The notes beneath the pieces are model-generated. The model did no database searches, was not told the DNA's origin, and worked only from the letters and a program-made list of their open reading frames with translations. From Microcella flavibacter (GTDB taxonomy: Bacteria > Actinomycetota > Actinomycetes > Actinomycetales > Microbacteriaceae): a stretch of DNA of 64,000 nucleotides. Positions 24,842 through 27,067 of this stretch are shown here, piece by piece (position 1 is the stretch's first letter; every line of letters begins with the position of its first letter). Location of the stretch: assembly GCF_012530535.1 (NCBI RefSeq), contig NZ_CP051299.1, positions 1,922,001 to 1,986,000 on the forward strand, given 5' to 3'. A program made the position numbers and the translations under genes.

Positions 24842-25438
24842 TCACCGGGCGGGGAGGGTCGTGGGGCGCCATGCTTCGCGGCGCCCCTCGAAATCGGTGA
24901 TCGCCTGCTCGTCCCGCAGGGTGAGCCCGATGTCGTCGAGCCCCTCCATGAGACGCCACCGCGTGTAGTCGTCGATCTCGAAGGGGGCAACGATATCGCC
25001 CACCCGCACATTCCTCTCGACCAGGTCCACGGTCGCCTCGCAGCCGGGATCGGCCTCGAGGGCCGCCCACATGCGCTCGACGGTCGGCTCGTCGACGACG
25101 GCGGTGAGCAGGCCCTGCTTGCCGGCGTTGCCGCGGAAGATGTCGGCGAACTTCGGGCTGATGACGGCGCGGAACCCGAAGTCGCGCAGCGCCCAGACGG
25201 CGTGCTCGCGGCTCGATCCGGTGCCGAAGTCGGGGCCGGCGATGAGGATGCGCGCGCCGGCGTACTCGGGGCGGTTGAGCACGAACTCGGGGTCGTTCCG
25301 CCAGTTCGAGAAAAGGCCGTCCTCGTAGCCGGTCTTCGTGACCCGCTTGAGGTAGACGGCGGGGATGATCTGGTCGGTGTCGACGTTCGAGCGCTTCAGC
25401 GGCGCGGCCACGCCGGTGATGACGGAGGTCTTGTCCAT
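24842..25438 (-). CDS. leuD: 3-isopropylmalate dehydratase small subunit
   Basis: A 198-residue LeuD, normal length. With LeuC it isomerises 2- and 3-isopropylmalate in leucine synthesis. Family motifs are [39 protein letters not shown], and [20 protein letters not shown]. The ATG shares one base with the leuC stop (TGATG), so the subunits are translationally coupled. Confidence 0.97.
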
Positions 25439-26934
25439 CAGGCCGTCACCCCCTCGATGCCCGTGAAGGCCGGATCGACGGCGACGCCCATCGCGATGAG
25501 GTCGGCGGGGCTCGACAGCGTGCCGCGGATCGCGGTCGCCGCGGCGACGAGCGGGCTCACCAGGTGGGTGCGGCCTCCCTTGCCCTGGCGGCCCTCGAAG
25601 TTGCGGTTGCTCGTCGAGGCGCAGCGCTCGCCGGGGGCGAGCTGGTCGGGGTTCATGCCGAGGCACATCGAGCAGCCGGCGAAGCGCCACTCGGCGCCGA
25701 ACTCCTCGACCACCTTGTCGATGCCCTCCGCCTCGGCCTCGAGGCGCACGCGGGCCGAGCCGGGGACGACCATGACGCGCACGCCGTCGGCCTTCTTCTG
25801 GCCCTTGATGATCGAGGCGAAGGCGCGCAGGTCGTCGAGCCGGCTGTTCGTGCACGAGCCCATGAAGACCGCGTCGACGGGGATCTGCTTCATCGGCGTG
25901 CCCGCCTGCAGATCCATGTACTCGAGCGCGCGCTCGGCCGCGGCGCGGTCGTTCGGGTCGATGATCGTCGTCGGGTCGGGCACGGCCGCGCTGAGCGAGA
26001 CGCCCTGCCCGGGGTTCGTGCCCCACGTGACGAAGGGCTCGAGCTCGTTCGCGTCGAGGAACACCTCGGCGTCGAAGACGGCGTCGTCGTCGGTGCGGAG
26101 CGTGCGCCAGTACTCGACCGCGGCATCCCAGTCGGCGCCCTCGGGGGCGTGCGGGCGGCCCTGCAGGTAGGCGAAGGTCGTCTCGTCGGGGGCGACCATG
26201 CCGGCCCGCGCGCCCGCCTCGATCGACATGTTGCAGATCGTCATGCGGCCATCCATCGACAGGGCGCGGATCGCGCTGCCGCGGTACTCGAGCACGTAGC
26301 CCTGGCCGCCGCCGGTGCCGATCTGGGCGATGACGGCGAGGATGATGTCCTTCGCGGTGACGCCCGGCTTGAGCTCGCCCTCGACCGTGATCGCCATGGT
26401 CTTGAAGGGCTTGAGCGGCAGCGTCTGCGTGGCGAGCACGTGCTCGACCTCGCTCGTGCCGATGCCCATCGCGAGCGCGCCGAAGGCGCCGTGCGTGGAG
26501 GTGTGCGAGTCGCCGCAGACGACCGTGATGCCCGGCATGGTGAGCCCGAGCTGCGGGCCGACGACGTGCACGATGCCCTGCTCGACGTCGCCGAGGGAGT
26601 GCAGGCGCACGCCGAACTCGGCGCAGTTCTTGCGCAGGGTCTCGATCTGGATGCGGCTCGTCGGCTCGGCGATGGGCTTGTCGATGGCGAGGGTCGGGGT
26701 GTTGTGGTCCTCCGTCGCGATCGTCAGATCGGGGCGGCGCACCGGCCGGCCGGCCATGCGCAGGCCGTCGAAGGCCTGCGGGCTCGTGACCTCGTGCACG
26801 AGGTGCAGGTCGATGTAGAGCAGGTCGGGCTCGCCGTTCTCGCCCTTGGCGACGAGGTGGTCGTCCCAGACTTTCTCAGCGAGGGTGCGGGGGCGGCGCG
26901 CCTCGGCGGCCTCCGCGCGGGTGTCGTCAGTCAT
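25438..26934 (-). CDS. leuC: 3-isopropylmalate dehydratase large subunit
   Basis: A 498-residue aconitase-fold large subunit. The three cluster-ligating Cys are seen in [13 protein letters not shown] and in the paired [12 protein letters not shown]. Other signatures are [23 protein letters not shown] and [18 protein letters not shown] charged 20-residue N-terminal extension precedes [11 protein letters not shown]. The ATG has GGAACGAG just upstream. A 73-base segment with a stem-loop separates it from a 15-codon leader ORF rich in Leu codons, suggesting translation-linked control by leucine. Confidence 0.97.
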
Positions 26935-26967
26935 CTCGTTCCACGTCCTTCTTCGATCCGATGCGTG

Positions 26968-27003
26968 CAGGCCGACGGCGAACTCCGCGACGAGACCGGC
27001 CTG
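26968..27003 (-). promoter_or_regulatory. leuC leader stem-loop
   Basis: CAGGCCG and CGGCCTG (26997-27003 and 26968-26974 in transcript order) form a seven-pair stem with a 22-base loop, between the leader-peptide stop and the leuC ribosome-binding site. It is placed where an attenuator or RBS-sequestering structure would be. No U run follows, so control of leuC translation or a Rho-type mechanism is more likely than an intrinsic terminator. Confidence 0.45.
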
Positions 27004-27007
27004 AGGA

Positions 27008-27055
27008 TCAGGAGTCGTCGCGGCGACGAAGGAGGAGCGAGCGTTCGCGCGGCAT
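27008..27055 (-). CDS. leucine-type leader peptide upstream of leuCD
   Basis: A 15-codon ORF reading [15 protein letters not shown] and ending in TGA. It has three consecutive Leu codons (CTC CTC CTT) followed by three Arg codons. The ATG lies exactly six bases after TACTCT, so the transcript probably begins with the leader ATG itself (leaderless). It is followed by the stem-loop and then leuC 73 bases on. Leucine-rich leader peptides before leu genes are established in actinobacteria and enterobacteria. Ribosome stalling at the Leu triplet under leucine shortage is the inferred control. Confidence 0.6.
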
Positions 27056-27061
27056 CCGGTC

Positions 27062-27067
27062 AGAGTA
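27062..27067 (-). promoter_or_regulatory. -10 element (TACTCT) of the leu leader transcript
   Basis: TACTCT, spacer GACCGG, then the leader ATG at 27055. No clear -35 is seen. Confidence 0.5.

Follow-up and report, generated by a model that had tools for sequence, protein, structure and literature searches.

A LEU-type leader element upstream of leuCD in Microcella flavibacter and other Microbacteriaceae

The LEU element was described in 2005 for actinobacterial leuA operons (Seliverstov et al., PMC1262725). In the text of that paper leuA is the target, and the element consists of a leader ORF that contains several Leu codons in succession, a base stem involving the Shine-Dalgarno (SD) sequence, and a stem with a pseudoknot, with no clear terminator. 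All of these features recur in the sequence reported here, whereby the copy from the actinobacterium Microcella flavibacter precedes leuC. The same authors refer to earlier work on leuA of S. coelicolor, in which mutations of the leader had some effect but one inconsistent with classical attenuation. For the leuA leader LeuL1 of S. lividans, a leaderless transcript has been reported from RNA-seq start sites (PMC8079986); like the leuC leader it is a Leu leader without a typical terminator, whereas its target is leuA and the start of the leuC leader is predicted from sequence. Leaderless polycysteine leaders from mycobacteria (Canestrari et al., 2020, as cited in PMC13236596) resemble the leuC leader as sensor ORFs in front of a biosynthetic operon, with cysteine as the amino acid instead. 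The leuCD genes are known as a target of NdgR/LtbR, a regulator of the IclR family that is encoded beside leuC (PMC4340878), so that the same genes are controlled by a protein there and, as we propose, by an RNA leader in M. flavibacter.

The analysed window comprises 64,000 nucleotides of the M. flavibacter genome, in which the leader with its parts, leuC and leuD lie on the minus strand. The preliminary description of this DNA had proposed a leucine leader peptide upstream of leuCD, and the layout that it gave is present in the sequence: TACTCT, six bases, a 15-codon ORF with three Leu codons in a row, a stem-loop, and leuC. Extended to TGG-TACTCT, the motif (TGGTACTCT, 27070-27062) is a predicted extended -10 promoter, with 6 nt between it and the leader ATG at 27055. 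The leader ORF (27055-27008; 15 codons plus stop) reads ATG CCG CGC GAA CGC TCG CTC CTC CTT CGT CGC CGC GAC GAC TCC TGA. Its three Leu codons CTC CTC CTT (27029-27037) are the putative sensor and would at the same time form the 5' strand of the base stem as an anti-SD; the 3' strand is the SD region of leuC, GAAGAAGGA (26946-26954). The stop codon of the leader, which lies within the loop of the predicted stem I, is separated from the leuC start by 73 nt. The leuC gene (25438-26934, ATG at 26934) encodes the large subunit of 3-isopropylmalate dehydratase (NCBIfam TIGR00170, 739 bits), and leuD for the small subunit (TIGR00171, 183 bits) is next in the predicted operon; the span of 24842-25450 is the stretch translated for the search, and the leuD ATG is to be placed a few codons below its upper boundary. 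A terminator scan found no intrinsic terminator between leader and leuC, so that the hallmark of a classical transcription attenuator is missing there. A sigma-70 scan gave nothing, and comparison with the Rfam families, including T-box elements and riboswitches, yielded no match at gathering score or with E < 1; a single further Rfam match was dismissed as chance.

In order to describe conservation, 59 distinct leuC-upstream copies were aligned. TANNNT is present in all 59 and is preceded by TG in 56, and the distance between the -10 motif and the start codon is 6 nt in 41 copies and 7 nt in 18; the motif was sought 4-10 nt before the start, with 6-7 nt favoured at the six loci where a choice existed. 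No -35 consensus is visible among these copies. Judged by this promoter spacing, the leader transcript is very probably leaderless and starts at or very near the leader ATG. The length from start codon to stem takes only the values 26, 29, 32 or 35 nt, thus the reading frame never shifts, and in 53 of the 59 copies the spacing between stop codon and stem is the same. Leu counts in the three frames are 214:23:17. The preliminary description had named conservation of the Leu codons with synonymous drift among relatives as a check on its proposal, and this is what the alignment gave: Leu occupies the three run positions in 59, 56 and 50 of the 59 copies, with exchange among CTC, CTT and CTG. The strict frame together with the Leu conservation argues that the leader ORF is read, and with the pairing described below it supports the proposed leucine leader peptide. 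Two loci from the same genus as M. flavibacter (L022 and L023) have just two Leu codons in the run. The last run codon is CTT in 58 of 59 copies, although CTT makes up 1.1% of the Leu codons in leuC genes. This would be expected if pairing with the AAG of the SD were required; alternatively, CTT might be retained for the slow decoding of a rare codon. The Arg triplet behind the Leu run, which had been called unexplained, can be understood as a by-product of the stem: its bases are part of stem I or lie next to it, so that no separate function is needed, and the two codons after the run encode Arg in 32 and 38 of the 59 copies, with Ser, Cys, Pro, Leu or Gly in most of the others.

The stem-loop itself stands, with nine pairs in this sequence in place of the seven first counted. 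Its 5' arm CCGCGACGA (27023-27015) lies within the Arg-Arg-Asp-Asp codons and its 3' arm is TCGTCGCGG (26993-26985). Most relatives have ten pairs, and in an alignment of 47 copies the ten pairs are formed in 99.4% of the cells, with two covarying pairs. RNAalifold recovered stem I as the sole element; base stem and pseudoknot were absent from its prediction. The pseudoknot would join CAGGCC in the loop (27003-26998) with GGCCTG (26973-26968) in six perfect base pairs, and relatives show compensations, namely CAGGCG/CGCCTG (L084), CAGGCA/TGCCTG (L065), ACCGACC/GGTCGGT (L074) and CCCCGGC/GCCGGGG (L070), as well as a further one in L083. With about one genome per genus, which controls in part for ancestry, pseudoknot strands from the same genome pair better than swapped ones (p 0.003). 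We know of no LEU pseudoknot in the mycobacterial polycysteine leaders. On the same kind of sample, in which ancestry is again partly controlled, the duplex between Leu run and SD is stronger for matched pairs, with -10.7 kcal/mol, than for swapped ones, with -9.5 +- 0.34 kcal/mol (0 of 5000 swaps). Furthermore, the codon after the run co-varies with the SD flank, whereby CGN goes with CGAAG and AGN mostly occurs without it (Fisher p 0.003, and p 0.02 outside the source genus, both ignoring kinship). The single-sequence fold of the leader is no more stable than shuffled sequences (z = +1.7), so thermodynamics alone would miss the element. By its sequence anatomy, the leuC leader is a LEU element: the Leu-codon run in a leader ORF, the base stem between this run and the SD, for which the support is statistical, and the conserved stem with its pseudoknot were all found. 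The described position upstream of leuA does not apply, as the copy precedes leuC; position was treated here as context and not as anatomy.

How far the element extends was surveyed in the leuC upstream regions of 81 loci from 80 Microbacteriaceae genomes, scored by a pattern together with a covariance model, R1. This model was built from leuC copies and one leuA copy, and its strict filters may miss weak copies; its E-values are circular for the sequences from which it was built. The element is present at 66 of the 81 loci, including all 23 examined from the genus of M. flavibacter. It is missing from 15, one of which is a second leuC copy (loci without it are L027, L040, L042, L055, L058, L066, L068, L069, L071-L073, L076, L077 and L079). 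The leader scores E = 2.6e-14 in its own genome, a value that is partly circular as the model contains the sequence; this match and the presence at 66 of 81 family loci place the leuC element beyond chance. Another match in the same genome (C1:2587685), the third there, was rejected as a palindromic hairpin between other genes. In a named set of 80 leuC loci, some of whose genomes overlap the family survey, 19 have an R1 match just upstream, all of them Microbacteriaceae (Leifsonia, Microbacterium, Agromyces, Leucobacter, Cryobacterium, Glaciibacter, Rathayibacter and others). No such match was found before the named leuC loci of Arthrobacter, Kocuria, Streptomyces, Mycobacterium and other families, nor before those of Curtobacterium, Frigoribacterium, Agrococcus, Salinibacterium and Rhodoluna. 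Among 138 genomes of the class, a match directly before leuC occurs only in the four that are Microbacteriaceae, as judged by eye from the listed coordinates. A literature search, which covered article text without figures and only a minority of the subscription papers, found no case of a leuC-borne LEU element; its placement on leuCD thus appears to be previously unreported.

M. flavibacter also carries a second LEU copy before leuA, where the leader GTG TTC GGT CAG CTT CTT CTT CGC TGC CGC GAC GAG GTC TAG begins six bases after TACCCT. This second copy, the pseudoknot and the complementarity of Leu codons and SD go beyond the preliminary description. The covariance model also finds the leuA element L165, whose leader MRFGLLLLSCRGEGL is identical to S. 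lividans LeuL1; additional strong matches in other genomes precede either leuA paralogues or leuB. Mean identity of the leuC copies is 0.65 to leuA copies of the family and 0.55 to leuA copies of other families, and for 53 of 59 leuC copies the nearest leuA copy comes from within the family. Some peptides are identical, such as VLFGLLLLSCRDES, which occurs at both leuA and leuC in G036. The identity pattern and the identical peptides favour a duplication, by which the leuC element would have arisen from a leuA copy inside the Microbacteriaceae. Copies from the same genome are not more alike than copies across genomes (0.683 vs. 0.679, p 0.20), hence there is no sign of continuing gene conversion. 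LEU-like matches also occur just upstream of second leuA copies in G028, G049, G051, G076 and G133.

An IclR-family protein, to which we give the name NdgR by position and family, is encoded divergently beside leuC, where PMC4340878 locates NdgR/LtbR; among 59 further genomes from the order, 56 have it with at least 58% identity. No NdgR/LtbR-type ortholog was found in any of the 90 Microbacteriaceae genomes searched, in which the best hit had 41% identity, and the regulator is also missing at the Microbacteriaceae loci without a leuC element. Its absence and the leuC element are to be read as an association, since they represent a single event at the family level. It might be that NdgR/LtbR was lost in the ancestor of the Microbacteriaceae and that leuCD came under the control of a duplicated leuA LEU element instead, a scenario for and against which we see equal weight. 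One leucine-reading RNA module would then control several genes of the pathway, and the related elements near leuB in other families, with their Ile/Val/Leu codons, would take a different amino-acid input.

Judged by sequence comparison, the leuC leader is a genuine LEU element that is conserved and has a target so far undescribed in the literature text covered; it likely acts by translational attenuation. We consider it probable that a stalled ribosome keeps the Leu codons from masking the leuC SD. The first transcribed base would be the A of the leader ATG or one close to it, and on such a transcript the ribosome would load at the 5' end without an SD. When leucine is ample, the ribosome would pass the Leu codons, reach the stop codon in the stem I loop and leave; the Leu run could then pair with the leuC SD in a duplex stabilised by stem I together with the pseudoknot, and initiation at leuC would be low. 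Under a shortage of charged tRNA-Leu, the ribosome would stay on the Leu codons and block the base stem, which would leave the SD accessible for translation of leuCD. Seven codons separate the last Leu codon from the leader stop. With the usual ribosome footprint, a ribosome on the Leu run would cover the mask and one that has reached the stop would be clear of it, and termination would thus uncover the run. The sequence fits a Leu run that is both sensor and SD mask. What the comparison shows is the anatomy, the conservation, the reading frame and the signals of base pairing, and from these we infer the leaderless start, the stalling, the SD unmasking and the leucine response at leuC. If Leu codons also mask the SD in leuA leaders, mutations of those leaders would be expected to have mixed effects.

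A different outcome of the same ribosome movement would be transcriptional attenuation by Rho, whereby the ribosome decides on Rho loading onto the untranslated stretch before leuC. Seliverstov et al. suggest Rho for terminator-less cys leaders of mycobacteria (PMC1262725), no intrinsic terminator was found before leuC, and the 73 nt between leader stop and leuC start would make coupling possible; however, the conserved pairing of Leu run and SD would have no obvious role, and we regard this mechanism as unlikely. Much less probable is the predicted binding of a regulatory protein to the pseudoknot with the ORF being secondary. Seliverstov et al. prefer this for the leuA elements and name a DEAD-box protein as candidate; against it, the strictly kept frame and the conserved Leu codons speak for an ORF that is read, and the pseudoknot varies in sequence while its pairing is kept. 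Least probable of all is a constitutive leader without leucine sensing, whose sole role would be to bring ribosomes to leuC by reinitiation: an increase of downstream translation in this way has been proposed for leaders (PMC4833913) and leader start and stop are conserved, but the Leu run, the rare CTT codons and the SD pairing would be left unexplained.

With the leuC copies, an RNA regulator that is still poorly understood gains leuCD as a target besides leuA in a large part of the Microbacteriaceae, and about 60 diverse sequences become available for structure and mutation tests. Under translational attenuation, compensatory mutations could separate the sensor role proposed for the Leu codons from their proposed role as SD mask, and such a dual role may help to explain the non-classical behaviour of the earlier leuA leader mutants. 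As the element coincides with the absence of the neighbouring regulator gene, it offers a natural case of putative RNA control where relatives use a protein.

LEU-like stems were also observed before leuB in other actinobacterial families (L115, L116, L158 and L166-L174), with leader peptides containing Ile/Val/Leu codons, for example MRHIFVLRCRGGA, MRQVLVLITCRGGA and MQWAVRILGCRDGVR. Such peptides next to similar stems suggest that the codon content of these leaders is tuned. The leuB-near elements lie about 150-500 nt before leuB and occur in at least 17 of the 138 genomes of the class. Four of the small ORFs on the leuB side were compared with Pfam and NCBIfam and gave no match. These ORFs, of about 20-45 codons, are located between the element and leuB in L115 (minus strand), L116, L166, L167, L168, L172 and L173, and have a common end like ALQESMDRRDNGG.
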